Shown here piece by piece: positions 27,657-58,780 of a stretch of DNA of 64,000 bases (positions are counted from its first letter, which is position 1; each line of letters begins with the position of its first letter). The notes beneath the pieces were generated by a model. The model was not told the DNA's origin. It saw only the letters and a program-made list of their open reading frames with translations, and made no database searches. The translations under genes were made by a program, and so were the position numbers. The DNA comes from Desulfoferula mesophila (GTDB lineage Bacteria; Desulfobacterota; Desulfarculia; Desulfarculales; Desulfarculaceae). Location of the stretch: positions 1,875,501-1,939,500 of the forward strand of contig NZ_AP028679.1 in assembly GCF_037076455.1 (NCBI RefSeq), in the 5' to 3' direction.

Positions 27657-28115
27657 TCACGCCGCTCCCCTTTCCGCCGCCTCACCGGCGGCCGGCGTCG
27701 CTCCGGCCAGCTTGGCCGGGTTGGGCCCCAGGGCCCTGATGCGCTCGGTCATCTCCCGGGCGAACTGGGCGAACTTGGGCGCCTCGCCCGAGGTGAGGTT
27801 GTACATCTGCACCCTCTCGCCACCGGTGCCCACCTGCTCCAGCAGGCGCCGGGCCTGCTCCACCCGCTTGCGGGCCTTGAAGTTGCCCTGCTCGTAGAAG
27901 CAGCTGCCTTCCATGCAGCCCACCAGGTAGACCCCGTCGGCCCCTTTTTCAAAGGCACGCAGGATGTGCAGGATGTCCACCTTTCCGGTGCAGGGCACGC
28001 GGATTATGCGCACCTGGGCCGGGTAATTCAGACGCATCGAACCTGCCAGGTCCGCGGCTGAATAGCCTCAGGCGTTGCAGCAAAAAGCCACGATAACCGG
28101 CTCGAAGCCCTCCAT
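27657..28115 (-). CDS. mvhD: MvhD-like iron-sulfur subunit containing selenocysteine (in-frame UGA)
   Basis: A 152-residue protein when the TGA at 28070-28068 is read as selenocysteine, residue 16. The N-terminus is [25 protein letters not shown]. The family consensus is CCNxCxYAGAD, so the UGA sits exactly at a conserved Fe-S ligand Cys position. After the UGA the frame continues through IIRVPCTGKVD and VGCMEGSCFY to a normal stop. A 7-bp hairpin starts 14 bases after the UGA. The ATG overlaps the hdrA stop (ATGTGATGG). MvhD passes electrons between a hydrogenase or other donor and HdrA. Standard annotation would report only the 126-residue C-terminal part. Confidence 0.88.
28038..28054 (-). 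promoter_or_regulatory. Candidate bacterial SECIS hairpin for mvhD
   Basis: CGGACCU (28054-28048), loop GGC, AGGUUCG (28044-28038), one G-U pair, beginning 14 bases after the UGA. The distance suits a bacterial SelB-binding hairpin inside the coding region. Loop identity differs from the E. coli fdhF type. Confidence 0.55.
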
Positions 28116-31100
28116 CACATCACTCCCTCCAGCAGACCGTCCACTTGCGCGAGGATCTGGTCGTCCTCGTACCAATTGAGCTCTATGGCCTTGGCCGGGC
28201 ACTCGGCGGCGCAGATGCCGCAGCCCCGGCACAGGGCTTCGTCGATCTGGCTGACCCCGTCCTCGTTGATGCGCGGCACCCCGTAGGGGCAGGAGTAGAC
28301 GCACACCAGGCAGGAGGCGCACAGGTCGGGGTTCACCCGCGAAGTCACCGGCGACAGCTCCAACTCGCTTTGGGAAAGCAGGGTGGCCGCTCGCCCGGCC
28401 GCGGCCAGGGCCTGGGCAATGGATTCGCCCACCAGCTTGGGCCCGTGGGCCGTGCCGCACACGTAGACCCCGTCGGTGGCCATGTCCACCGGGCGGAGCT
28501 TCACGTGGGCCTCCAACAGATAGCCGTCCGCGTTGCGGGCCAGCTTCATGATGGAATACAAGTCCTCGGATTCGCGGGGACGCATCCCGGCGCTCAGGAC
28601 CAGCAGGTCGGCCCGCGCCTGGATCTCGCGGCCCAGCACGTGGTCGATGAAGCTCACCTGAATGCCGTCTTCTGTTGGGGTCACCTCCGGGGGATGCTCC
28701 TGGTCGTAGCGGAAGAAGACCACGCCCTTTTTGCGGGCCTCGGTGTAATAGTCCTCCATGAGGCCGTAGGTGCGCATGTCGCGGTAGAGCACGTAGACCT
28801 GCATCTCGGGGTTGAGTTCCTTGAGGTGCAGGGCGTTCTTGACCGCGCTCTGGCAGCAGATGCGCGAGCAGTTGGGGTAGTCCTCGCGCCGGGAGCCCAC
28901 GCACTGGATCATCACCACCGCGTCCAGGCCTTTGGCCCCTTCCGGGTCTTCCAGGCGTTGGGCCAGCTCCACTTGGGTCACCACCCTGGGGTCCTCGCCG
29001 TAGCCGTATTCGCTGGGCTGGTATTCGCCGGCCCCGGTGGCCAGGATGAGGGCTCCGTGGTTGATCTTGCGTTCGTACATGGCCGGGCCCACGATGACCT
29101 CGGTGGTGAAGTTGCCCCTATAGCCGCTGAAGCTGGTGATCACCGTCTCGGTGAGCAGCTGGATGTTGTCGTGCTCCATGACCCGCTGGACGAGGCCGTC
29201 CACGTGGGCGTTGATGTCCGCTCCCTCGATGGTGTGGGTCAGTTGACGGGCAAAGCCGCCCAGGTTGGCCTCGCGCTCCACCAGCACCACCTCGAAGCCC
29301 TGCTCGGCCAGGGACAGGGAGGCGGTGAGTCCGGCCACTCCGGCCCCCACCACCAGGCAGCGGGGCTTGACCCCCACCGTCATGCGGGGCAGGGCGCGAT
29401 GGGTGCTCACCCGAGCCACCGCCGCGCGCACCAGATCCTTGGCCTTGGCCGTGGCCAGGGCCGGTTCGCCGCTGTGCACCCAGGAATCGTGGTTGCGAAT
29501 GTTGGCCATCTCGAACAGGTACTTGTTCAGGCCGCAGGCGGTGAGTGTGTCCATGAAGATGGGTTCGTGGGTCTTGGGGCTGCAAGAGGCCACCACCACC
29601 CGGTTGAGGTTGTGCTCGGCGATCTTGGCCTTCATCTGCTCCTGCACGTCCTGGGAGCACACGAACAGCCCGTCGTCGGCCACCACCACGTGGGGCAGGG
29701 AGGCGGCGTACTCGGTGACCGAGGGCACGTCCACCACCCCGGCGATGTTGATGCCGCACTTGCACACGAACACCCCCACCCTGGGCTCTTCGGCCGCCAC
29801 GTCGCGCTCGGGCGGAATCTCCACCGCGCGGGTAGCGCTCCAGCGGGCCGGGGACAGCTTGCCCGCCGCGGCCGCCGCCGCCGCGCTGGCCTCGGTGACC
29901 GAGCTGGGGATGTCCTTGGGCCCCTGGAAGCTGCCGCAGACCATGACCCCCGCGCGGTTGGTGGCCACCGGGGTCATGGGATCGGTGACGGCGAAGCGGT
30001 ACTTGTCCAGTTCAATCCCCAGGCGCTGAGCCAACTCGCCGCTGGAGGCGGGCACTTGCAGGCCCACCGAGAGCACCACCAGGTCGAAGGCCTCCACCTT
30101 GGCCTGGCCGTCGTCGGTGGCGTACTCGATGAGCAGGCCGCCGGTAGCCGGGTCGTCGTAGATGGTGTGGGCCCGCGACTTGATGAAGCGCACCCCCGCC
30201 TGATCCCGGGCCCGTTGGTAGTAGAGCTCGTAGTCCTTGCCAAAGGTGCGGATGTCCATGTTGAAGATGGCGCAGTCCAAATCGCCGGGGGCGTGCTCTT
30301 TGGCCACCAGGGCCTGCTTGATGGCGTACATGCAGCACACCGAGGAGCAGTAGCCGTTGCCGCAGTTGTGGGTGTCGCGCGAGCCCACGCATTGCAGCCA
30401 GGCGATCTTCAGGGGCTCCTGGTGGTCGGACAGGCGCACCAAGTGGCCCTGGGTGGGACCGGCCGGGCTGAGCAGGCGTTCGAACTCCAGGGCGGTGAGC
30501 ACGTTGGGGTTCTGCCCGAAGCGGAAGTCCAGGCCCAGGCCGTTGGGCTGATAGGGCCGCGCGCCGCTGGCCAGCACCACCGAGCCCACGTTGAGGGACA
30601 CCTCGCGGGGCGCCTCGTCGTGGTTCACCGCTCCCGCCAGGCAGGCGTCAACGCAGAGCATGCACTCGGCGCACCCGGCGCAGGCCAGGCAGCGGGAGGC
30701 CTCGGCCCGGGCCTGCTCCTCGGTGTAGGGTCCCAGCACCTCCTTGAAGTTGCGGGCCCGCTCCGCCGGGTCGGCGTGGGGCAGGTGCTCGCGGGCCTGG
30801 GGTGCCTTGTCTATCTTTTCCGGCTGTACCGGGGTCAGCTTGCGGGGGCGTCCCTGTTTTAGGTCCCGGCCCTCCACCAGGGCCGTGACCGAGCGGGCCG
30901 CCTCCTTGCCCTGGGCCACCGCCTCGATGACCGTGGCCGGGCCCAGCACCGCGTCGCCGCCGGCAAAGACAAAGGGCAGGTTGGTCTGCAGGCTCACCTC
31001 GTCCACTTGCAGGCAGTTCTTTTTGCCCACGTCCAGGCGGCAGGTGTCGTCCAGGCACTCCAGGTCCGGCTCCTGGCCAATGGCGGCCAGGGCCCCGTCC

Positions 31101-32581
31101 ACCTCTATGACGTATTCGGAACCGGGTATCTCCTGGGGCCGGGCCCGCCCCGAGGCGTCGGGCTCGCCCAGCTCCATCTTGATGACCTCCACGCCGGTCA
31201 GCTTGCCGCCGCTGGAGATGAAGCGCTTGGGCGCCACCAGGAATTGAATCTGGACGCCTTCTTCCAGGGCCTCCTCGACCTCGTCCTCATAGGCGGGCAT
31301 CTCGTTGCGGGTGCGGCGATAGAGGATGGTCACCTCTTGGCTGCCCAACCTCAGGGCGGTGCGGGCCGAGTCGATGGCCACGTTGCCGCCGCCCACCACC
31401 ACCACCCGCCGGCCCGGCGAGTTGGCCTGGCCCAGGCCGGCCCGGCGCAGGAACTCCACGCCCGGCTGCACCCCTGGAACGTCCTCGCCCTCCACCCCCA
31501 GGGTGAGGCAGCGGTGGGCGCCCACGGCCATGATCACCGCCTTGTAGCCCTCCTGTTGCAACTGGCCCACCGTGAAGTCCTCGCCCAGGGTGCTGTTGAG
31601 ACGTATCTCCACCCCCAGGGCCTTGATGTAGTCGATTTCATAGTCCAGGATACGCTGGGGCAGCCGGTAGTCGGGGATGCCCACCCGCAGCATGCCTCCG
31701 GCCACGGGCAGCGATTCGAAGATGGTTACCGCGAAGCCCTCCAGGGCCAGGTAATAGGCCGCCGAGAGGCCCGCCGGGCCCGAGCCGATCACGGCGATTT
31801 TCTCGTCCCGGGGCGGCTTGGTCTCGGGCAGGTCCATCTCCCCCTGCTCGATCTCCCACTCGGCCACGAAGCGCTTGAGGTCGCGGATGGCGATGGGCTC
31901 GTCCAGCTCACCTCGGGCGCAGGCGGTCTCGCAGGGATGGGTGCACACCCGGCCGCAGACGGCGGGCAAGGGATTCTCGTCGCGGATGACCTTTAGGGCC
32001 TCGCGGTAGCGTCCGGCGGCGATGAGGTTCACGTAGCCCTGCACCGCGATGTGGGCGGGGCAGGCCACCTTGCAGGGGCTCTGGCCCCGCTTGCTGATGG
32101 CATAGGCGCCGGGGATGGCCTGGGCGTAGCGCTTGTAGGCCGCCCTGCGCTGGGCTATGCCCGCGTCATACTCACTGTCCAGGGGTATGGGGCAGACCTT
32201 GGCGCACTCGCCGCAGGCGGTGCACTTTTCCAGGTCCACGAAACGGGGGTGTTGCAGCACCCGGGCGGTGAAGTCGCCTTCCTCGCCGTCCAGGCCCAAG
32301 ACCTCCGCGTTGGTGAGAAGCTCTATGTTCAGATGCCGGCCGACCTCGACCAGTTTAGGCGAGATAATTCACATGGCGCAGTCGTTGGTCGGGAAGGTCT
32401 TGTCCAATTGGGACATCAGGCCGCCGATGGCCGGGTCGTTCTCCACCAGGTAGACGTAGTACCCGGAATTGGCTAGGTCCAGGGCCGACTGCATCCCCGC
32501 GATGCCGCCGCCCACCACCATGACCCGTCCCACGGGCCGGGCCGGAGCCGCCAATGCCTTGCCTTGCGCGCTGTCTGCCAT
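28115..32581 (-). CDS. hdrA: HdrA-type flavoprotein: HdrA with inserted GltD-like module plus second HdrA, selenocysteine-containing
   Basis: A 1488-residue protein if the TGA at 32371-32369 is read as selenocysteine (residue 71). Residues 1-165 are an HdrA FAD domain ([16 protein letters not shown], then [22 protein letters not shown]) with a [12 protein letters not shown] cluster at about 120. Residues 165-600 are an inserted GltD/NfnB-like NAD(P)H module ([39 protein letters not shown]) ending in a [13 protein letters not shown] cluster. The remainder of HdrA follows ([16 protein letters not shown]). A second HdrA starts near residue 940 ([18 protein letters not shown]) and lacks the NDCxMU site. 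Two C-terminal 4Fe-4S motifs complete it. The likely role is flavin-based electron bifurcation among NAD(P)H, ferredoxin and the MetF/MvhD partners. No HdrB or HdrC gene is in the window. Confidence 0.9.
32336..32353 (-). promoter_or_regulatory. Candidate bacterial SECIS hairpin for hdrA
   Basis: CUGGUC (32353-32348), loop GAGGUC, GGCCGG (32341-32336): a 6-bp stem with two G-U pairs starting 16 bases after the UGA. The loop contains GGUC, as does the SelB-recognised loop of E. coli fdhF. Loop distance matches that of the mvhD hairpin. Confidence 0.65.
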
Positions 32582-49827: not shown

Positions 49828-50568
49828 TCAGACGCCGTTGGACTTTTCCTCGGCGGCCATCTTCAGCCAGGCGGTTTCCAGGTTTTTCATTTGCGAATTG
49901 ATCTTCTTCACGTGCTCCAAGGCCAACTGTTGGGCCAGGTCCGCATCGCGTTGTTGCAAAGCGCGCAAAATGCCGCGGTGATCTTCATCCGTGTGCAGAA
50001 TCAAATGTTTGGGTTTCAGGGCGGTCACAAAGGCCAGGGTGAAATCCAGGACACGGTTTATCAGGGCCGCATAGATGGGGTTGCCGCAGGCCCGGCCCAC
50101 TTCCCGGTGGAAATTACCGGTAATGTCTCTTTTTTCGTCGGGATTATTTTCGTAATAGCTCTCATCGATGATGTTTTCCAGGTCGATCAAATCCTCGTCG
50201 GTGGCATTGGTGGCCGCCAAGCGAAACACCTCAGGTTCCACGAATTGGCGCACCTGGACCAGGTGGTCCACGGTAAGTTGGCGCAAGCGGATGAGATCGG
50301 CCACGTTTTCCAAAAGGAATAGATGGTCGATGCGCCCCACCATGGCCCCGCCCTTGGTTCCGCGGTTGATTTTTATCAGGCCTTGGGCCTGTAAATAGCG
50401 CAGGGCTTCACGAATCACCGGTCGGCTTACAGCCATCTGCCGCGCCAGCTTGGTCTCGTTGGGCAAGGTGTCGCCCAGTTTGAGAGCCCCCGTGAGTATG
50501 GCCTCGCGTATCTCCGAAGCCACGACTTCGTAGAGGTTTTCCTGTTTTCCCACCGCCTTGAGGCTCAA
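49828..50568 (-). CDS. GntR family transcriptional regulator (FadR subfamily)
   Basis: A 246-residue protein if started at the TTG at 50568, which has AAGGGGAC at a good distance. The frame remains open to a TTG at 50655 (275 residues) without a clear ribosome site. The winged helix contains REAILTGALKLGDTLPNETKLA and MAVSRPVIREALRYLQAQGLI; the C-terminal FCD domain has RQFVEPEVFRLAA and NFHREVGRACGN. It is divergent from the TRAP/dctP operon, whose promoter region holds a clear palindrome, so it probably represses that operon. Confidence 0.9.
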   Translation of the reverse strand: MSLKAVGKQENLYEVVASEIREAILTGALKLGDTLPNETKLARQMAVSRPVIREALRYLQAQGLIKINRGTKGGAMVGRIDHLFLLENVADLIRLRQLTVDHLVQVRQFVEPEVFRLAATNATDEDLIDLENIIDESYYENNPDEKRDITGNFHREVGRACGNPIYAALINRVLDFTLAFVTALKPKHLILHTDEDHRGILRALQQRDADLAQQLALEHVKKINSQMKNLETAWLKMAAEEKSNGV

Positions 50569-50648
50569 TTTACCGTCCCCTTGTGACCTTGTGTAAGTTA
50601 CCTTGTGATCTACAAAATCCCAAATTTGGCGCTTTGCAACTTTTTCGG

Positions 50649-50706
50649 TTGACAAATACTAACACAGCAAGATACATCATGTGTAGGTAAAACGTAATAC
50701 GTATTA
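50649..50706 (+). promoter_or_regulatory. dctP promoter region with GntR-type operator
   Basis: A TTGACA -35 (50649-50654) with a weak -10 near 50671-50677, followed by a perfect 12-bp palindrome TAATACGTATTA (50695-50706). It lies between divergent gntR and dctP genes, as expected for autoregulation and repression. Confidence 0.6.
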
Positions 50707-50752: not shown

Positions 50753-51766
50753 ATGAGGTCCAAATCGCTCGCGATCCTCGCTACCCTTCTCCTGCTGGTA
50801 TTTGGGACGGCCACACTGGCCTCCGCCATGAACATCCGCCTCAACATCGTATATGGGCCCAAGCATCCCTTGGCCAAGGGCGTGTTTAAAAACTGGGCCG
50901 AACAAGTGAAAAAAGTAACCGACGGACGAGTCAAGGTTACCATTTTCTACGCCAGTGCCCTGGCCAAAATCACCCAGGTGTTTGACGCCACGGTTTCCGG
51001 CCAGATCGACGCCGGTCTTTCCTGCCCCACCTATGCCCAGGACCGCTTCCCTCTGAGCGGCATCCTGGACCAGCCCATGGTGGCCACCTCCAGCGCCGAG
51101 GCCAACAGCGCCGCACTGTGGAAGCTGTATGAAAAGTACCCGGCCATGCAAAAGGAGTATGAGAAGGTCAAGGTGCTGTGGTTCTACACCAACCCCGCCT
51201 TCCAGCTCCACTTCACCAAGCGCGATGTGCGCAATCTGGAAGAGCTCAAGGGAGCCATCGTCTCCGCCGGCGGCAGCGCCGCCCTGCAGATGCTCAAGGC
51301 CCTGGGCGCCAACCCCGAGGCCCTGCCCATGCCCGAGGTGTTCCTGGCCCTGCAAAAGGGCGTGGTGGAAGGCTGCTTCCTGCCTTATCCTCCCTTGCGC
51401 CCCCGCCGCATGACCGACATCCTCACCACGCACACCGTGGGTGACTTTTCGGCCACCGGCTTCTACGTGATCATGAACCAGAAGAAGTGGAACAGCATCT
51501 CCCCCACGGACCAGAAGGCCATCATGCAGGTCAGCGGCCTGGCCGCGGCCAAGATGTCCGGCCGCGACTTTGACCAGGCCCAGGAGCGCGACGTGGCCTG
51601 GATGAAGAAGAAGGGCGACAAGTTCTTCGTCTTGGATCCCACCGAGCGGGCCAAGTGGATGGCGCGGGTAAAGCCCCTGCGCGACGCCTGGGTCAAGGAC
51701 CTGGAGGCCAAGGGCCTGCCCGCCCAGGCGGTGCTGGACGACGCCCTGAAGATGCTTAACAAGTAA
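50753..51766 (+). CDS. TRAP transporter substrate-binding protein, DctP family
   Basis: A 337-residue periplasmic protein. The ATG at 50753 follows AAGGAGGT. The signal peptide MRSKSLAILATLLLLVFGTATLASA ends near residue 25. DctP features are LNIVYGPKHPLAKGVFKNWAEQV, DAGLSCPTYAQDRFPLS and the solute-Arg region. It captures the solute for the fused permease in the next gene. The family binds carboxylates, sulfonates and related acids. Confidence 0.93.
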   Translation: MRSKSLAILATLLLLVFGTATLASAMNIRLNIVYGPKHPLAKGVFKNWAEQVKKVTDGRVKVTIFYASALAKITQVFDATVSGQIDAGLSCPTYAQDRFPLSGILDQPMVATSSAEANSAALWKLYEKYPAMQKEYEKVKVLWFYTNPAFQLHFTKRDVRNLEELKGAIVSAGGSAALQMLKALGANPEALPMPEVFLALQKGVVEGCFLPYPPLRPRRMTDILTTHTVGDFSATGFYVIMNQKKWNSISPTDQKAIMQVSGLAAAKMSGRDFDQAQERDVAWMKKKGDKFFVLDPTERAKWMARVKPLRDAWVKDLEAKGLPAQAVLDDALKMLNK

Positions 51767-51789
51767 AACAAACGAACCTACCGCTCAAG

Positions 51790-51821
51790 CACCCTCGGCC
51801 GAGCCATCTCGGTCGAGGGTG
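51790..51821 (+). promoter_or_regulatory. GC-rich hairpin between dctP and the permease gene
   Basis: A 14-bp stem (51790-51803 with 51808-51821, one G-U pair), loop CCAT, followed by GTTTGGG, without a true T run. It probably attenuates or stabilises mRNA so that receptor exceeds permease. Confidence 0.65.
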
Positions 51822-51879
51822 TTTGGGACGGTTTAGAAGCTTCCCCCATAACGAATGGGGAGCAAAGGGTCTACCGGTT

Positions 51880-53772
51880 ATGCAAATCCTTAAGTTGCAC
51901 GACGGGCTGGCCAAGACGATCACACCGGTATCACGTATTTTCAACGGTGTGGGCGCGTCCATGGCCCTGCTCATGGTGCTCTTGGTGACGGCCAACGTGA
52001 TCACGCGCAGCGTATTCGGCTTCTCCCTCACCGGAGTGGTGGAGTTGGAAGAGATCATGTTGATTCTGTTGGTCTTCGGCGCCATGGGCCACGCCCAGTT
52101 GGCCAACAAACACATCGGGGTGGATTTTTTCACCTCGCACATGTCCGACCTCAACCAACTCAGACTGGCCTGTTTCACCCAGCTGTTGAGCGGCTGGTTC
52201 TTCCTCATGTGCACTTGGCAGAGCCTGGTCATTTCCCACACCTATTGGGTGGAAAACGACACCACGCTGCTGCTAAAGATATCCAAGACCCCCCTTACCC
52301 TCATAATCGCCTTGGGCCTATTTTTGTTGGCCTTGGCCCTGGTCAAGGACGGCATAAAGAGCTCCGCCGAGTTGCTGCAAAAGAAGCAGGGCGTCTGGGC
52401 GGGCATGTCCTGGTTGGTTTCCATCATCCTTATACTGGGGGTGCTGGCCCCTGGCTGGTTCGATTGGAGCATCGAGCCCGACGCCAATGGATGGATTTGG
52501 GGCGTGGCCCTGTTGGCCCTTTTGTTCTCGGGCATGCTCATCGGCGGCGCCCTGGGTTTCCTGGGCGCCTTCGGCATGGCCTGGTGCTTCGGCACCGACG
52601 CGGGGCTGGGTCTGTTGCAGACCGTCCCCTTGTCTTCCGTTTCCTCCTACTCCCTGTGCGTCATCCCCTTCTTCGTGCTCATGGGCGAGATCTGCTTCCA
52701 CTCCGGGCTCAGCGACAAGCTCTATCGTGCCGCCTACCGCTGGGTGGGCCATCTGCCCGGCGGCTTGGCCATAGCCACGGTGCTGGCCTGCGGCGCTTTC
52801 AGCGCGGTCAGCGGCTCCTCCCTGGCCACCTCGGCCACCATGGGCACCGTGGCCTTGCCGGAGATGCGACGCTACGGCTATAAGGACAGCCTGGCCACCG
52901 GCTCCATCGCCGCGGGCGGCACCCTGGGCATCCTCATCCCGCCCAGCGTGATCCTGATCATCTACGGCGTGTTGGTTGAGCAATCCATCGCGGACCTGTT
53001 TTTCGCCGGCATCATCCCGGGCTTTATCATGGTGGCCTACTACTGCATCGCCATCATGATCTGGGCCAAGCTGCGGCCGGACCTGGGACCCCGCGGCCCG
53101 CAGCATAAGTTCCCCGAAAAGGTACGCTCCCTGGCCGACACCTGGGAGGTGATGTGCCTGTTCCTGCTGGTCATGGGAGGCATCTACGGAGGCTGGTTCA
53201 CCCCCACCGAGGCCGGCGCCATCGGCGCGGCCGGGGCCCTGATCTTCGGCCTCATTCGCCGCCGGGTGAGCAAGAAGAACATGAAGGACTCGCTGTTGGC
53301 CACCGGCCGCACCACGGCCATGGTCTTCTTGGTGGTTATCGGCACCGCAGTGTTCGGCTACTTCCTCACTTCCACCCAGATACCCATGCACCTGGCCGAA
53401 TGGGCGGCCAACCTGCCGGTCCCGCCCTTCGTGGTCATAGCCGCCATCATCACCTGCTGCTTCCTGTTGGGCTGCGTGATGGGAACCTTGCCCCTGGTGT
53501 TCATCACCGTGCCCATCTTCGCGCCGGTGGTGGAATCGCTGGGCTACGACCTGATTTGGTTCGGAGTGGTCATGGTGGTGGTTTCGGAGATCGGCCTCAT
53601 CACCCCGCCGGTGGGCATGAACGTGTTCATCATGAAGGGCGTGGCCGACGACGTGCCGCTGACCACCATTTTCAAGGGCATCGTTCCTTTCCTGTTGGCC
53701 GACATCGCGGTCATGATTACTTTGCTCGCCTTCCCCTCCGTGACCCTGTTCCTGCCGAAACTGCTTAATTGA
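51880..53772 (+). CDS. TRAP transporter permease, fused DctQ-DctM
   Basis: A 630-residue membrane protein. I choose the ATG at 51880 (MQILKLHDGL) over an upstream open frame. The first roughly 170 residues are DctQ-like, then a loop, then a DctM domain with GALGFLGAFGMAW, AGGTLGILIPPSVILIIYG and GLITPPVGMNVFIMKGVAD. It forms the channel for the dctP-bound solute. The 14-base gap to the next gene supports one operon. Confidence 0.93.
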   Translation: MQILKLHDGLAKTITPVSRIFNGVGASMALLMVLLVTANVITRSVFGFSLTGVVELEEIMLILLVFGAMGHAQLANKHIGVDFFTSHMSDLNQLRLACFTQLLSGWFFLMCTWQSLVISHTYWVENDTTLLLKISKTPLTLIIALGLFLLALALVKDGIKSSAELLQKKQGVWAGMSWLVSIILILGVLAPGWFDWSIEPDANGWIWGVALLALLFSGMLIGGALGFLGAFGMAWCFGTDAGLGLLQTVPLSSVSSYSLCVIPFFVLMGEICFHSGLSDKLYRAAYRWVGHLPGGLAIATVLACGAFSAVSGSSLATSATMGTVALPEMRRYGYKDSLATGSIAAGGTLGILIPPSVILIIYGVLVEQSIADLFFAGIIPGFIMVAYYCIAIMIWAKLRPDLGPRGPQHKFPEKVRSLADTWEVMCLFLLVMGGIYGGWFTPTEAGAIGAAGALIFGLIRRRVSKKNMKDSLLATGRTTAMVFLVVIGTAVFGYFLTSTQIPMHLAEWAANLPVPPFVVIAAIITCCFLLGCVMGTLPLVFITVPIFAPVVESLGYDLIWFGVVMVVVSEIGLITPPVGMNVFIMKGVADDVPLTTIFKGIVPFLLADIAVMITLLAFPSVTLFLPKLLN

Positions 53773-53785
53773 AAGGACTCCAATA

Positions 53786-55228
53786 ATGACATACCCCACT
53801 GTTTATCCCACTGGAGCCACGGTATACGATCCCGAGCGCTGCTGGAACGGCTACACGCTGTTCCAGGCCAGGGAGCGGGGCGCCCTGCTCATCGACATGA
53901 ACGGCCGCGAGGTGAAGCTTTGGAAGAACCTGCACGGCTTCCCCAACAAGCTGCTGCCCGGCGGCTACGTCATGGGCCACTCCGGCGAGCGCAACGTCAA
54001 ATACAGCGTCCAGGACTACATGGACCTGATCCAGGTGGATTGGGACGGCAACGTGGTCTGGAAGTTCGACCAGTATGAGTACGTGGAAGACCCCGGCGAC
54101 GAGCCCCGCTGGATGGCGCGCATGCACCATGACTACCAGCGCGAAGGCAACCCGGTGGGTTACTACGTGCCGGGCATGGAGATGCCCAACGATCACGGCA
54201 ACACCCTGATCCTGGCCCACAAGAACGTGATCAACCCGGCCATCAGCGACAAGAACCTGCTGGACGACGTGGTCTACGAGGTCACCTGGGAAGGAGACAT
54301 CGTCTGGGAGTGGGCCTGCAACGAGCATTTCGACGAGTACGGCTTCCACGAGGACGCCAAGAACATCCTGTGCCGCGATCCCAACCTGCGCCCGGCGGGC
54401 GGCGGCATGGGCGACTGGATGCACATCAACTCCATGTCCGCCCTGGGTCCCAACCGCTTCTACGACGCGGGTGACGAGCGTTTCCACCCGGACAACATCA
54501 TCGTGGATGGCCGCGAGGCCAACATCATCTGGATCATCTCCAAGGCCACCGGCAAGGTGGTGTGGAAGGTGGGCCCCTACTACGACGAGACCCCGGAGCT
54601 CAAGGCCCTGGGCTGGATCATCGGCCAGCACCACGCCCACATGATTCCCCGCGGCCTGCCCGGCGAGGGCAACATCCTGGTGTTCGACAACGGCGGCTGG
54701 GGCGGCTACGGCGCTCCCAACCCCGGCAGCCCCAAGGGCTGCAAGAACGCCCTGCGCGACTACTCCCGGGTGCTGGAGTTCGATCCGGTCACCCTGAAGA
54801 TCGTGTGGCAGTACACCCCCAAGGAAGCGGGCCTGGTGCACCCCACCGACAGCAACCGTTTCTACAGCCCCTTCATCTCCAGCGCCCAGCGCCTGCCCAA
54901 CGGCAACACCCTGATCACCGAGGGCAGCGGCGGCCGCATCCTGGAGGTGACCGTGGAGCACGACCTGGTGTGGGAGTACATCAGCCCTTATTGGGGTGAG
55001 AACCTGAACCAGAACATGGTCTACCGGGCCTACCGCTCGCCCTACGACTGGGTGCCGCAACTGGACAAGCCCGTCGAGACCCCCATCGCGCCCGTGGACG
55101 TGACCACCTGCCGCATGCCGGGCGCGGCCGCCCCCGGCGCCGAATCGGTGGTGGAGATCGAAGGCACCGTGCCTTACCAGAAGTCCACCGCCCTTTGCGT
55201 GGTGACCGACGCGGACGTCAAGGACTAA
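53786..55228 (+). CDS. Arylsulfotransferase (ASST)-like beta-propeller protein
   Basis: A 480-residue protein of the arylsulfotransferase family. Repeats of propeller strands are visible as VDWDGNVVWKF, VTWEGDIVWEW, KATGKVVWKV, FDPVTLKIVWQY and VEHDLVWEY. Family histidines occur in RMHHDYQ, DWMHINSM and GQHHAHMIPRG. No signal peptide is seen, unlike periplasmic ASST of E. coli, so it is probably cytoplasmic. It could move sulfate from an aryl or alkyl donor or act on a related bond. Operon neighbours are a TRAP transporter, a GcvH-like protein and thiol redox proteins. Confidence 0.82.
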   Translation: MTYPTVYPTGATVYDPERCWNGYTLFQARERGALLIDMNGREVKLWKNLHGFPNKLLPGGYVMGHSGERNVKYSVQDYMDLIQVDWDGNVVWKFDQYEYVEDPGDEPRWMARMHHDYQREGNPVGYYVPGMEMPNDHGNTLILAHKNVINPAISDKNLLDDVVYEVTWEGDIVWEWACNEHFDEYGFHEDAKNILCRDPNLRPAGGGMGDWMHINSMSALGPNRFYDAGDERFHPDNIIVDGREANIIWIISKATGKVVWKVGPYYDETPELKALGWIIGQHHAHMIPRGLPGEGNILVFDNGGWGGYGAPNPGSPKGCKNALRDYSRVLEFDPVTLKIVWQYTPKEAGLVHPTDSNRFYSPFISSAQRLPNGNTLITEGSGGRILEVTVEHDLVWEYISPYWGENLNQNMVYRAYRSPYDWVPQLDKPVETPIAPVDVTTCRMPGAAAPGAESVVEIEGTVPYQKSTALCVVTDADVKD

Positions 55229-55243
55229 GACCAAACAGACCAT

Positions 55244-55313
55244 GGCCCCGGCCCACCTTGGGCCGGGGCCGGGCCTGACGGCGTTCCGACTGGGGCCGCC
55301 CGAACGGCGGCCC
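55244..55313 (+). promoter_or_regulatory. Two GC-rich hairpins between ASST-like and gcvH-like genes
   Basis: A 12-bp stem (55244-55255 with 55259-55270, loop CCT) and an 8-bp stem (55293-55300 with 55306-55313). No T run follows either. They may balance expression along the operon or protect the upstream mRNA. Confidence 0.55.
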
Positions 55314-55350
55314 AAGCCGAAACCCCGTACAGGCAATGCGAGAGGAAGTT

Positions 55351-55764
55351 ATGAGCACGTCAAAATCTATCGAGGAAATGCTCTTTCCCGCTGAGTTGCG
55401 CTACAGTAAAGAGCACACCTGGGTTCAGGCCACCGGTGCTACCTTGAAGGTGGGCATCAGCGACTTCGCCCAGGATCAACTGGGCGAGGTGATTTACGTG
55501 GAGCTGCCCGCCGAGGGCGACGAGTTGGACCAAGACGCCGAGTTCGGCGTGATCGAATCGGCCAAGTCCACCTCCGACCTGTTCATGCCCATATCCGGCG
55601 AGGTGGTGGCCGTGAACCACGCCTTGGAGGACGAACCCGGCTTGGTGAACCAAAGCCCCTATCAGGACGGCTGGATGCTCGAGGTCAAGCCCAGCGAGCC
55701 CGCCCAGTTAAAAGACATCCTCTCGGCCGAGGACTATCTGGGGCTTATCAAAAAGGAGGCTTAG
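55351..55764 (+). CDS. GcvH-like lipoyl carrier protein
   Basis: A 137-residue protein clearly of the GcvH family: PAELRYSKEHTWVQATG, VGISDFAQDQLGEVIYVELP, and the lipoylation Lys72 in ESAKSTSD, then LVNQSPYQDGWMLEV. The ATG at 55351 follows GAGAGG. No glycine cleavage P- or T-protein gene is in the window. Instead a glutaredoxin fusion and dihydrolipoyl dehydrogenase follow. This suggests that the lipoyl arm serves another carrier function, for instance handling of thiol- or sulfur-bound groups, as lipoate-binding proteins do in the sHdr system. This role is inference. Confidence 0.88.
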   Translation: MSTSKSIEEMLFPAELRYSKEHTWVQATGATLKVGISDFAQDQLGEVIYVELPAEGDELDQDAEFGVIESAKSTSDLFMPISGEVVAVNHALEDEPGLVNQSPYQDGWMLEVKPSEPAQLKDILSAEDYLGLIKKEA

Positions 55765-55766
55765 TC

Positions 55767-56588
55767 ATGGCCGTAACCATCTACACCGCCACCGGTTGCG
55801 CCCGGTGCAAGATCGCCAAGAAGTACATGGCCCAAAAGGGCGTCGAGTACCGCGACCTGGATATCAAGGCCGAGGGCAAGGACGAGTTCAACCGGTTTTA
55901 TCGTGAGAACCGCAAGTCGGTATACCGCGGCCCCGACGGCATCGAATTCCCGGTCTACTTCGACGGCCAGGTGGTCAAACAGGGCCTGGGGGTGGTGGTG
56001 GGCCACGTCAGCTCCCCCAAGGTGGCCGGTTTCTTCGGCGTCGGCCTGCTGCACGGCGAGTGGGTGGACGGCATCCATATCTCCCAGGGCGACCCCGAGG
56101 CCATCGACGAGCTGGTGGAGGCGCTGGCTTATCTCAAGAGCGCGGGCATGAAGTTCGAGATGGACACCGACGGCCGCAACCCCCAGGTGCTCGAGCGCCT
56201 GCTGGCCGAGGGCCTGGGCGACGTGCTCATCGTGCGCCTCATCGGCACCAAGGACATGTACGCGGCCCAGGGCTATGACCTGGCCGAGGTGGAAAAGACC
56301 ATGGCTTTGGCGGCCAAGTTCCCCGAGTACCGCTTCGCGTTGGCGGTGCGCCCGGTGGTGCGCCCGGACGGCGCGGTGGAATACCTGAAGCCCGAGGAGG
56401 CCGGCGAGATAGCGGCCTGGGTGAAAGAGGCCACCGGGGGCAACAAGCACCCCTTCGTGCTCACGCCCTTTGATCTCAAGGCCGCGGCTGATGAGCGCTT
56501 CGCCGGGCTGGCCCCCCTGGAGGCCAAGGACCTGTTCATCTATCGCAGCAAGGCCCGGGCCCACCAGGTGATGGCCGCCATCGCCTAG
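55767..56588 (+). CDS. Glutaredoxin fused to a radical-SAM-like half barrel
   Basis: A 273-residue protein 2 bases after the gcvH-like stop. Residues 1-75 are glutaredoxin-like with C11-A-R-C14 in TATGCARCKIAKK. The rest has a barrel pattern (HISQGDPEAIDELVEALAYL, MKFEMDTDGRNPQVLERLL, LGDVLIVRLIG) resembling the second half of NrdG or PFL-activase proteins, but the Cx3Cx2C cluster motif is absent. It may be a thiol reductase that works with the lipoyl protein. The fold assignment of the C-terminal part is a sequence impression and needs structure prediction. Confidence 0.7.
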   Translation: MAVTIYTATGCARCKIAKKYMAQKGVEYRDLDIKAEGKDEFNRFYRENRKSVYRGPDGIEFPVYFDGQVVKQGLGVVVGHVSSPKVAGFFGVGLLHGEWVDGIHISQGDPEAIDELVEALAYLKSAGMKFEMDTDGRNPQVLERLLAEGLGDVLIVRLIGTKDMYAAQGYDLAEVEKTMALAAKFPEYRFALAVRPVVRPDGAVEYLKPEEAGEIAAWVKEATGGNKHPFVLTPFDLKAAADERFAGLAPLEAKDLFIYRSKARAHQVMAAIA

Positions 56589-56655
56589 GGCGGATACTCC
56601 CGGCGGCTTGCCGGTAAATTCGACATGCGGGCCTGGGCCCGTTGGACAAGAGCAT

Positions 56656-58041
56656 ATGAGCAAGTACGACGTGATAGTGATCGGCGGGGGGCCCGGCGGC
56701 TACGTGGCCGCGGTGCGTTGCACCCAACTGGGGCTGAAGACTGCCGTGGTGGAAAAAGAGGCCGTGGGCGGCACCTGCGTGAATTGGGGCTGCATCCCCA
56801 TCAAGTCGCTGCTGCGCAACGCCGAGGTGGTGCACCTGCTGAACCAGGGGCGCACCTACGGCTTCGCCCTGGAGGGCCTGAGCGTGGACTACGCCGCGGC
56901 CCAGAAACGCTCCCGCCAGGTTTCCACCCGCCAGGGACGGCGGGTGCAGGCCCTGCTCAAAACCTCCGGCGTGGAGGTGATCGCGGGCAAGGCGGTGCTG
57001 GCCGGGCCGCGCCAGGTGCGCCTGGAGCCCTCGGGCGAGGTGCTGGAGGCTGGCAATATCATCCTGGCCACCGGCTCCCAGGCCCGCCAGATACCGGGAA
57101 TGGAGCCCGACGGTGAGCGTATCATCACCTTCCGCCAGGCCCTGGAGCTGACCCAGGCCCCGGCCTCGGTGGTGGTGGTGGGCGGCGGGCCCATCGGCCT
57201 GGAGTTCGCCTCGGTGTGGAACCGCTACGGCTCCAATATCACCGTGGTGGAGATGATGCCGCGCATCATGCCCCTGGAAGATCCGGACGTGAGCGAAGAG
57301 GTGGCCCGCCAGTACAAGAAGGCCAAGATGGACATCCGGGTGGAGGCGGCGGTCAAAAAGGCCGAGCTTACCGACGCCGGGGTGGCCATCACCGTGGCCC
57401 AGGGCGAGGCCGAAGAGGTGATCGATGCCCAGATGATGCTCTCGGCCATCGGCTTCGTGCCCAACACCAAGGGCCTGGGCCTAGAGGAGGCCGGGGTGCA
57501 GCTCAATCGGGCGGGACAGGTGGAGATCGACGAGCAGATGCGCTCCAGCCTGCCCGGCGTGTACGCCATCGGCGACATCACCGGCAAGCTGGCCCTGGCC
57601 CACACCGCCTCGGCCCAGGGGGTTATCGCCGCCGAGGCCATCGCGGGCCGGGCCACCGAGCCCCTGGTATACGAGAACATCCCCCGCTGCACCTTTGGCG
57701 CGCCGGAAAGCGCCTCGGTGGGCCTTACCGAGGCCCAGGCCGCGGAGCGCGGCTACGAGCCGGTGGCCCAGCAGAGCCCCCTGGCCCCCAACGGCAAGGC
57801 GGTGGCCCTCAACGAGAACGCCGGTTTCATCAAGATCATCGCCGACGCCAAGAGCCGCCGGGTGCTGGGCGTGCACATGGTGGGTCCCCACGTCACCGAG
57901 ATGATCGGCGGGGCGGCCATGGCCCTGAACCTGGGGGCCACGGTGGAGCAGATGGCCGGCACGGTGTTCCCCCATCCCACGGTGAGCGAGGCCATGATGG
58001 AAGGCCTGCACGCCCTGGCGGGGCACGCCATCCATATTTGA
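56656..58041 (+). CDS. lpd: Dihydrolipoyl dehydrogenase
   Basis: A 461-residue flavoprotein. The ATG at 56656 starts MSKYDVIVIGGGPGGYVAAV. The redox pair C41/C46 lies in GGTCVNWGCIP, the NAD motif is VVVVGGGPIGLEFASVW, and the C-terminal active-site His-Glu is in HPTVSEAM. It reoxidises dihydrolipoamide with NAD. Its obvious partner is the GcvH-like protein two genes upstream, because no 2-oxoacid dehydrogenase E2 is present nearby. Confidence 0.93.
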   Translation: MSKYDVIVIGGGPGGYVAAVRCTQLGLKTAVVEKEAVGGTCVNWGCIPIKSLLRNAEVVHLLNQGRTYGFALEGLSVDYAAAQKRSRQVSTRQGRRVQALLKTSGVEVIAGKAVLAGPRQVRLEPSGEVLEAGNIILATGSQARQIPGMEPDGERIITFRQALELTQAPASVVVVGGGPIGLEFASVWNRYGSNITVVEMMPRIMPLEDPDVSEEVARQYKKAKMDIRVEAAVKKAELTDAGVAITVAQGEAEEVIDAQMMLSAIGFVPNTKGLGLEEAGVQLNRAGQVEIDEQMRSSLPGVYAIGDITGKLALAHTASAQGVIAAEAIAGRATEPLVYENIPRCTFGAPESASVGLTEAQAAERGYEPVAQQSPLAPNGKAVALNENAGFIKIIADAKSRRVLGVHMVGPHVTEMIGGAAMALNLGATVEQMAGTVFPHPTVSEAMMEGLHALAGHAIHI

Positions 58042-58213
58042 TCCATCCCCATAGCGGCCGCTGGGGCCGGGGGCGGCCATGGTCCGTCCTCCGCGCCCCA
58101 CGGTTGTTTTTGGGCGCGGGGAGATTGATCACCGAGAGCGGGCGGCGGCCAGACCAGCAGGCCATTGCCCGGACCCGTGGCGCAAAAGCGCTTTATCATC
58201 AGGAGAAAACAAC

Positions 58214-58780
58214 GTGAGCTTTTATGTACAATGGGTCATGAACGACCCCATGCTTTCCGCCTTCATCCAGTTTGCCGTTCTGGGCACCCTGGGCGAGGTG
58301 GCCGCGCACATGTTGGTCAAACGCTGTTGGGATCTGCCCTTCACCCCGAGGCGACTGGCCCTGAAGATTTTGGCCTGGGGCGTGCTGGGCGTGGTGGTCA
58401 AGTTCGGCTTCACCGGCATCAAGGGCTTTGTCCACGGCGTGGAAGAGGCCGGTTACCTGCCCGGCTTCATGGCAAGCGGCCTGGGCCACGCCTTCGCGCT
58501 GTCGCTGGGGGCCAACTTTTTCTTCGGACCCCAGATGATGATTTTTCACCGCTTGGAAGACAACCTCATCATGCGCGAGTGGAACTTCAAGGGCATTGAC
58601 CTGGCCCTCAAAAGCCTGGCCTGGTTCTGGATCCCGGCCCACACCCTTACCTTCGCTCTGCCTCCGGCCTTCCAGATCGGGCTGGCCGCCCTATGGGGCG
58701 TGGTGCTGGGCTTTATCATGGGATTTGCCAAGAACAAGGCCGCGGCCCAGGAGATGGGTCTGGCTCCGGCGATCAATTAG
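58214..58780 (+). CDS. Integral membrane protein, weakly Mpv17-like in layout
   Basis: A 188-residue protein with a GTG start behind AGGAG. Four hydrophobic segments are evident. The last third (FWIPAHTLTFALPP, then a membrane segment ending GFAKNKAAA) is reminiscent of the W-x-P...P pattern of Mpv17/PMP22 proteins, but the match is weak. No function is assigned. It sits between lpd and the ADP-forming ligase with small gaps and may belong to the same transcript. Confidence 0.7.
   Translation: MSFYVQWVMNDPMLSAFIQFAVLGTLGEVAAHMLVKRCWDLPFTPRRLALKILAWGVLGVVVKFGFTGIKGFVHGVEEAGYLPGFMASGLGHAFALSLGANFFFGPQMMIFHRLEDNLIMREWNFKGIDLALKSLAWFWIPAHTLTFALPPAFQIGLAALWGVVLGFIMGFAKNKAAAQEMGLAPAIN

Follow-up and report, generated by a model that had tools for sequence, protein, structure and literature searches.

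The window, by which we mean the whole 64,000-nucleotide stretch of the Desulfoferula mesophila genome that was analysed, carries a sulfotransferase-like gene of the ASST family within a TRAP-importer operon, together with genes for a lipoyl protein, a glutaredoxin fusion (GRXF) and a dihydrolipoyl dehydrogenase (Table 1). The gene content proposed in the earlier note (a GntR-type regulator, a TRAP system, a cytoplasmic ASST-like protein, a GcvH-like protein, a glutaredoxin fusion and Lpd) was borne out in full by profile matches, and the window ASST has no signal peptide. The numbering of the lipoyl site as Lys72 is also right when counted from the ATG at 55351, which is preceded by a Shine-Dalgarno-like GAGAGGAAG. 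As claimed, gcvP and gcvT are absent from the cluster; a canonical gcvT-gcvH-gcvPA run with its own gcvH and a gcvP-type match lies elsewhere in the genome, at ~3.214-3.217 Mb. None of the module proteins gave a profile match to the APS/PAPS-reductase family. The product of 58079-58780 had no family match in the profile search and is not conserved alongside the module, and its membership in the module is doubtful.

Table 1. Genes of the cluster, in coordinates of the window.
Feature	Coordinates	Strand	Profile match or remark
GntR/FCD-type regulator	49828-50655	-	PF07729, PF00392; divergent from operon
TRAP solute-binding protein DctP	50753-51766	+	PF03480, 140 bits
Fused TRAP permease DctQM	51823-53772 (alternative start 51880)	+	PF04290 and PF06808
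Cytoplasmic ASST, six-bladed-propeller sulfotransferase	53786-55228	+	PF05935, 87.4 bits (cut-off 24.2)
GcvH-type lipoyl protein, lipoyl Lys72 in ESAK	55351-55764	+	TIGR00527, 150.3 bits (cut-off 115.85)
GRXF, glutaredoxin/NrdH domain with PFL-activase-like half barrel	55767-56588	+	PF00462, 26.8 bits (cut-off 22.9)
Dihydrolipoyl dehydrogenase Lpd	56656-58041 (alternative start 56608)	+	TIGR01350, 528 bits (cut-off 409)
Membrane protein without known family	58079-58780, probable start 58214	+	Gene called separately from 58214

In one scan of ~85,000 species for GRXF loci we found 42, distributed over Desulfobacterota and Bacillota. A cytoplasmic ASST lay within 35 of these loci, and the ASST clade was present in 48 of the 49 GRXF genomes searched, including two Clostridia MAGs with no ASST at the GRXF locus itself. 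GcvH was found in 19 loci, Lpd in 20 and either or both in 24, with both missing from the other 18 in a set of which many loci are cut by contig ends. The constant pair of the module is thus ASST with GRXF, often but not always accompanied by GcvH and Lpd, and since the linkage recurs in two phyla, it is beyond chance. The conserved ASST/GcvH-Grx-Lpd neighbourhood envisaged in the earlier note therefore stood in its ASST-GRXF part and gave way as a fixed set. Similarly, TRAP import, which had been made part of the pathway, is present at the window locus but not constant, being exchanged elsewhere for DASS, TctA or aromatic-acid-type MFS carriers; the regulator varies as well, with Crp/Fnr-type genes at other loci versus GntR/FCD in the window. 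Neither this gene combination, which the earlier note had not recognised as a described system, nor an ASST in sulfite respiration was found described in the literature searched, which included few subscription journals.

The predicted model of the window ASST superimposed on Cpz4 with Z 30.5 and on E. coli ASST with Z 22.0 in structural comparison, the best non-ASST structures being 3no2 (function unknown, Z 19.7) and a next match at Z 17.5. A phmmer search of the single window sequence against solved structures gave zero matches; the ASST family profile and the structural comparison did recover solved structures where phmmer failed. Alignment through a bridging ASST and A3 placed H356, N358 and R374 of the E. 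coli enzyme at H213, N215 and R243, and motif and spacing placed H436 at H282 and H252 at H115. All five residues (H115, H213, N215, R243 and H282) are unchanged in all 48 module-type ASSTs and intact in the window ASST.

What sets this clade apart is a C-terminal tail on which one cysteine, C471, never varies, being present in 48/48 module-type ASSTs (30/30 once rows 90% alike were dropped). The tail is confined to the module clade, and its cysteine is missing in every other ASST examined; residues 468-480, including C471, were modelled at low confidence (pLDDT <50). A second cysteine, C178, is kept in 47 of 48 module-locus ASSTs and is Leu in five TAXI-TRAP-linked ASSTs, as well as in the ASST of one relative (G001) in whose genome GRXF went undetected. 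Strict coupling of C178 to GRXF was nevertheless weakened by a Mailhella ASST that has Leu178, retains C471 and adjoins an intact GRXF, leaving C471 as the constant one.

In GRXF, the glutaredoxin/NrdH domain occupies residues 1-84 (Z ~10 to NrdH), and its active site, C11-x-R-C14, is present in every complete copy compared. The C-terminal half barrel resembles PFL activase (3can, Z 13.0), with the CxxxCxxC iron-sulfur motif of radical SAM enzymes missing, and across the aligned GRXFs no cysteine other than C11 and C14 is invariant. Most weak GRXF matches covered residues 96-220 only, looked like ordinary NrdG2-type radical SAM proteins and were set aside.

An ASST with two conserved cysteines beside a thiol-disulfide oxidoreductase gene has a precedent in DsbL/DsbI (PMC13426309), and the module might accordingly comprise an ordinary phenol-to-phenol sulfotransferase whose cysteines GRXF, GcvH and Lpd keep reduced, as a cytoplasmic counterpart of that pair. 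We consider such thiol housekeeping unlikely. DsbL/DsbI makes the disulfide of E. coli ASST in the periplasm, whereas the module appears cytoplasmic and its partner is a glutaredoxin of the reducing type; moreover, the NADH-driven chain, the tie to dsrA described below and a tail cysteine missing in other ASSTs would all be left unaccounted for.

The lipoyl lysine is unchanged in 27/27 module GcvHs, and their tree suggests that GcvH was recruited into the module more than once. The window genome has 7 GcvH-like genes in total. We had expected module genomes to be free of gcvP, and this expectation failed, 47 of 49 carrying a gcvP-type gene somewhere. In one relative (G006), GRXF even lies directly upstream of gcvT-H-PA-PB and lipA, so that GcvH, Lpd and GRXF could be spare parts serving glycine cleavage or lipoyl upkeep, with an incidental ASST link. 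This seems most improbable to us: the G006 GRXF is preceded by an ASST gene remnant (residues 399-477), by which its placement beside gcv genes looks secondary, GRXF is accompanied by ASST far more consistently than by gcv genes, and the gcvT-H-PA run of the window genome has its own H.

The earlier note had compared the lipoyl protein to those of the sHdr system. LbpA, a GcvH homologue, is essential for sHdr sulfur oxidation (PMC10332631), and given the invariant lipoyl lysine, the GcvH arm could take up sulfo or sulfane sulfur that GRXF and Lpd then process. However, GcvH is present in just 19 of the 42 loci, no sHdr or other Hdr-type genes were seen at the module loci read, and in a tree whose sequences did not include bona fide LbpA the window GcvH was placed separately from the two Hdr-linked GcvH-like proteins that the same genome encodes. 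With hosts that are sulfite reducers by dsrA, the likeness is weak and sulfur carriage on lipoamide very unlikely.

Of the 49 module genomes, 45 had a dsrA match above cut-off, against baselines of 189/395 in Desulfobacterota and 41/299 in the sampled Bacillota group. Among close ASST carriers, 13/13 were dsrA-positive (P 5.5e-5, phylogeny not corrected). The rate is high in the class of Moorella (13/22), so the Bacillota argument leans on the broader sample. Nearly all module hosts are thus sulfite or sulfate reducers by dsrA, and not known sulfur oxidisers. In 15 dsrA-positive hosts, including Moorella sulfitireducens, Bilophila and Mailhella, neither Sat nor an AprA above the cut-off was found, so free sulfate would be useless to them as an acceptor and sulfite usable; M. 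sulfitireducens is described with sulfite as acceptor (PMC11328732). As the hosts are mostly MAGs, little weight attaches to the absence of sat or aprA from any one genome. A sub-cut-off AprA-like protein occurs in 5 of 16 genomes lacking both sat and aprA, a paralogue type that is also found in genomes with true AprA.

These hosts bear on a further alternative, desulfation to sulfate, in which an import-linked, sulfatase-like ASST would pass the sulfuryl group to water or a small acceptor and the redox genes would handle the freed alcohol or phenol. Aryl sulfates do serve ASSTs as donors (PMC13426309), and the second ASST of the window genome has a sulfatase-like gene ~6 kb away. We nevertheless regard this alternative as distinctly unlikely, since the 15 dsrA-positive hosts without detected sat or over-cut-off aprA should not reduce sulfate, and the invariant neighbour is a glutaredoxin rather than a phenol-degrading enzyme.

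From the gene content, the ASST-GRXF pairing, the predicted fold, the intact catalytic residues, the invariant cysteine seen in this clade alone and the co-occurrence with dsrA, also in hosts without detected Sat and AprA, we infer a thiol acceptor, sulfite as the product, an order of electron flow and a class of substrate. The module may be a thiol-dependent, ATP-free sulfate-ester reductase, a reading to which we give an even chance. An organic sulfate ester (R-O-SO3-), probably an aromatic anion, would enter via TRAP, DASS, TctA or MFS carriers, and its sulfuryl group would move to the catalytic His282 of the cytoplasmic ASST as R-OH leaves. Transfer of the group to a thiol would next form a thiosulfonate (S-SO3-); the most likely acceptor is the invariant Cys471 of the flexible tail, with GRXF Cys11 or dihydrolipoyl-GcvH as other candidates. 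The CxxC of the GRXF glutaredoxin domain, perhaps aided by Cys178 of the ASST, would resolve the thiosulfonate and free sulfite to feed dissimilatory sulfite reductase. In APS reductase, likewise, an enzyme thiosulfonate is formed and a thioredoxin or Grx-like domain frees sulfite (PMC6827007). We found no example of an ASST using a thiol acceptor in the literature searched.

Thiols would be re-reduced along NADH -> Lpd -> lipoyl-GcvH -> GRXF, an order with a precedent in the NADH-Lpd-DlaT(lipoyl)-AhpD-AhpC chain of Mycobacterium (PMC12028322), and the net reaction would be R-OSO3- + NADH + H+ -> ROH + HSO3- + NAD+. The organosulfur theme of the earlier note and its idea that the lipoyl protein is served by a dedicated reductase are upheld by this analysis; its lipoamide as substrate carrier fared less well, an electron-donor role towards glutaredoxin being more likely, though a direct sulfo-lipoyl intermediate may occur.

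More broadly, and tentatively, at somewhat less than an even chance, the module could constitute a new entry into sulfite respiration. The ASST would act like a sulfonucleotide reductase, with a glutaredoxin of its own, supplied with electrons from NADH via Lpd and GcvH, to resolve the thiosulfonate on the tail cysteine. Organisms without Sat and Apr, such as gut Bilophila and Mailhella, could then form H2S from organic sulfates of host or dietary origin without spending ATP. The gut does contain sulfated forms of phenols, steroids and xenobiotics. If the proposal is true, sulfidogenic bacteria would have organic sulfates as additional direct electron acceptors, the use of organic sulfates by sulfite reducers without sulfate activation would be explained, and GcvH and Lpd would gain a role outside glycine cleavage. 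The module would, in addition, solve the task of APS reductase with non-homologous proteins and bypass ATP-dependent sulfate activation. According to a 2026 review, the natural acceptors of most ASTs are unidentified, and little is understood of what these enzymes do physiologically (PMC13426309); the proposal gives one AST clade a concrete, testable role.

Compared with known systems, the module ASST is closest to the PAPS-independent ASTs (E. coli AssT, D. hafniense DhAST, Streptomyces Cpz4), with which it has in common the predicted fold and the mapped catalytic His/Asn/Arg, and a ping-pong reaction via sulfo-His would be expected. It differs in having no signal peptide, an extra tail with an invariant cysteine, a glutaredoxin fusion as a nearly constant partner and co-occurrence with dsrA; the acceptors described for known ASTs are phenols, alcohols, amines and sugars, whereas here a thiol is proposed. 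With the thiol-dependent APS/PAPS reductases (CysH, plant APR) it would share the predicted logic of an enzyme thiosulfonate from which a Grx/Trx-type partner frees sulfite. The families are unrelated, however, the module enzyme being a propeller and not of the PAPS-reductase fold, and it would draw on an organic sulfate ester as donor, with no need for ATP-activated sulfate. The mycobacterial Lpd-DlaT-AhpD-AhpC chain has the same order, from NADH through Lpd, a lipoyl protein and a CxxC protein to the substrate enzyme, but in the module the lipoyl protein is GcvH, the CxxC protein the glutaredoxin fusion and the end enzyme ASST. In sHdr/LbpA sulfur oxidation, too, a lipoyl protein resembling GcvH takes part in sulfur metabolism, whereas the module loci are without Hdr-type partners and their hosts are dissimilatory sulfite reducers. 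Finally, the isethionate sulfite-lyase route of Bilophila and Desulfovibrio also draws on an organosulfur compound for the sulfite that feeds Dsr in gut bacteria; it does so by C-S cleavage of sulfonates with a glycyl radical enzyme, whereas the module is predicted to carry out reductive S-O cleavage of sulfate esters.

Re-examination of the cluster gave the same genes, coordinates and lipoyl Lys72 as the earlier note (table). Intergenic gaps are 13 bp between the genes of DctQM and the cytoplasmic, signal-peptide-less arylsulfotransferase (ASST), and 2 bp between those of the lipoyl protein GcvH and the glutaredoxin fusion protein (GRXF). The host genome (4.48 Mb, single contig), which shares its phylum with the Desulfovibrio-type genomes compared, contains dsrA, aprA and sat and is thus a sulfate reducer by gene content. 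It holds seven GcvH-like genes; the canonical one lies with gcvT and gcvPA in a separate gcv operon, which weakens the reading that the module parts serve glycine cleavage.

Features of the module and related genes
Feature	Location	Direction
TRAP DctP, fused DctQM, ASST, GcvH, GRXF, dihydrolipoyl dehydrogenase (Lpd)	window 50753-58041	all one direction
GntR/FCD regulator		divergent from this run
ASST	window 53786-55228	
GRXF	window 55767-56588	
Second cytoplasmic ASST	G000:C1:978587-980011 (L077 9076-10512)	
Canonical GcvH with gcvT and gcvPA	near 3.214-3.217 Mb	
Further GcvH-like gene, 2 kb beyond the window end	G000:C1:1941423 (L008 6891-7316)	
GcvH-like gene of a similar set	L011 9930-10358	
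HdrA-like gene	window 28115-32581	(-)
HdrA-like gene	L008 11456-14533	(-)
GRXF of the relative G006	L045 9498-10579	

The GcvH-like gene beyond the window end is enclosed by a GlcD-like gene and Fe-S (HdrB-type) oxidoreductases, and L011 has a comparable set; in this genome the apparent Hdr-linked lipoyl proteins are these two and not the module GcvH. An in-frame TGA interrupts both HdrA-like genes at an identical site (LDKT[FY]PTNDC[AS]M-TGA-I, after 70 residues, the frame open beyond); judged from sequence, both probably encode selenocysteine-containing HdrA.

The predicted ASST fold is closest to Cpz4 (Z 30.5), followed by E. coli ASST (Z 22.0); no other propeller scored above 19.7. Alignment through a bridging ASST placed E. 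coli His356, Asn358 and Arg374 at H213, N215 and R243, while H282 and H115 correspond by motif and spacing to His436, which is the residue sulfated in the E. coli enzyme (PMC13426309), and to His252. All five residues are invariant among 48 module-type ASSTs. A C-terminal tail is specific to this clade and missing from the other ASSTs examined; its invariant C471, one of seven positions more than 95% conserved within residues 432-480, was found in no ASST examined outside the clade. C178 occurs in 47 of the 48 and is Leu in five related ASSTs adjoining TAXI-type TRAP genes instead of GRXF. The second cytoplasmic ASST of the window genome (72% identical, Leu178, C471 retained) adjoins TAXI-type TRAP genes, with a sulfatase-like gene some 6 kb away and no GRXF alongside. 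In the genomes of L120 and L121 (Mailhella) and of L134, ASST-like matches number eleven or twelve per genome, many more than in the other hosts.

GRXF yields a confident AlphaFold model (mean pLDDT 93.5). Residues 1-84 are NrdH/glutaredoxin-like; from about residue 85 the predicted model forms a half barrel nearest to pyruvate formate-lyase activase (3can, Z 13.0, rmsd 3.2, 155 residues). The radical-SAM iron-sulfur motif is absent, and C11 and C14 are the only cysteines constant across copies.

The GRXF alignment, used as query in a single scan of ~85,000 species, found 42 GRXF loci. Hosts are Desulfovibrio, Bilophila, Mailhella, Desulfomicrobium, Solidesulfovibrio and other deltaproteobacterial MAGs, with Bacillota including Moorella sulfitireducens (two loci), Desulfosporosinus and Desulfovirgula. 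The window-type ASST lies within 35 of the 42 loci and somewhere in 48 of 49 GRXF genomes, the exception being a MAG. GcvH was found in 19 loci, Lpd in 20 and at least one of them in 24, many contigs being short. The importer is TRAP in the window, L099, L102 and L103 and elsewhere DASS, TctA or MFS, the last nearest to the aromatic-acid/H+ symport family. Because the ASST-GRXF linkage is kept while importer, GcvH and Lpd vary, ASST and GRXF together form the stable unit, to which GcvH and Lpd are usually but not always added. The inconstancy of GcvH weakens the earlier note's suggestion that an imported organosulfur compound or other group is carried on lipoamide, and we consider it improbable. 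In the GcvH tree the proteins of L099 and L102 cluster with the canonical ones, which suggests more than one recruitment. In G006, GRXF stands beside canonical gcvT-H-PA-PB and lipA, preceded by a C-terminal ASST gene remnant, as if the module had decayed; this remnant, too, counts against a role in glycine cleavage, which we rate as very improbable.

Near the module, several Desulfovibrio-type genomes carry an outer-membrane porin and a second ASST that is periplasmic and bears a signal peptide. At L079, L081, L082, L116, L118, L124 and L125 such paralogues neighbour the module or its second ASST, often accompanied by DESULF_POR1-type porins; one possible role for them is to transfer sulfuryl groups to phenols that can be imported.

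ASSTs are established to work by a ping-pong mechanism through sulfo-His. Combined with a CxxC protein of its own and a lipoyl chain driven by NADH, this led us to infer, with evenly balanced confidence, that the sulfuryl group of a putative organic sulfate substrate is transferred to a thiol and released as sulfite. The transfer potential of aryl sulfates is close to that of PAPS, which should make their NADH-driven reduction to sulfite favourable. The preferred candidate acceptor would be C471, and GRXF would be the best candidate for the resolving partner that frees sulfite; in APS reductases, sulfite is freed from an enzyme thiosulfonate by thioredoxin or, in plants, by a C-terminal domain with glutaredoxin function (PMC6827007). 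Electrons would pass from NADH through Lpd and the lipoyl protein to GRXF, as they do to the CxxC protein of the AhpD/AhpC path (PMC12028322). That the thiol chain is instead housekeeping for ASST, in parallel to DsbL/DsbI, whose genes accompany E. coli ASST, is unlikely and leaves the tie to dsrA unexplained.

Of the 49 module genomes, 45 had a dsrA match above the cut-off (the other four being two with partial matches and two incomplete or small assemblies), against 189/395 in the phylum and 41/299 in the sampled Bacillota group. Among the 395, dsrA was present in all 13 genomes whose ASST shows 64% identity or more (hypergeometric P 5.5e-5, uncorrected for relatedness). Neither sat nor over-cut-off aprA was found in 16 of the 49, of which 15 are dsrA-positive: Moorella sulfitireducens, described with sulfite as acceptor (PMC11328732), Bilophila, five Mailhella, Desulfosporosinus sp. 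PR, two Clostridia MAGs, one Bacillota MAG and four deltaproteobacterial MAGs. Assembly gaps could explain some absences, but two unlinked genes are missing together. Release of the sulfuryl group as sulfate, which would give hosts without Sat and Apr no usable acceptor, appears rather improbable. An AprA-like protein at ~360-440 bits, under the cut-off and distinct from true AprA, recurs in G136, G168, G309, G460 and others, in sulfate-reducing and sat-less hosts alike.

No description of this gene combination, or of an ASST reducing organic sulfates to sulfite, was found in the openly licensed papers searched. The parts belong to known families, but the whole, judged by its gene content and the reaction predicted for it, matches no described system. 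The module proteins have no homology to APS reductases and the module therefore lies outside that family, although its predicted working logic is that of APS reductase with thioredoxin.
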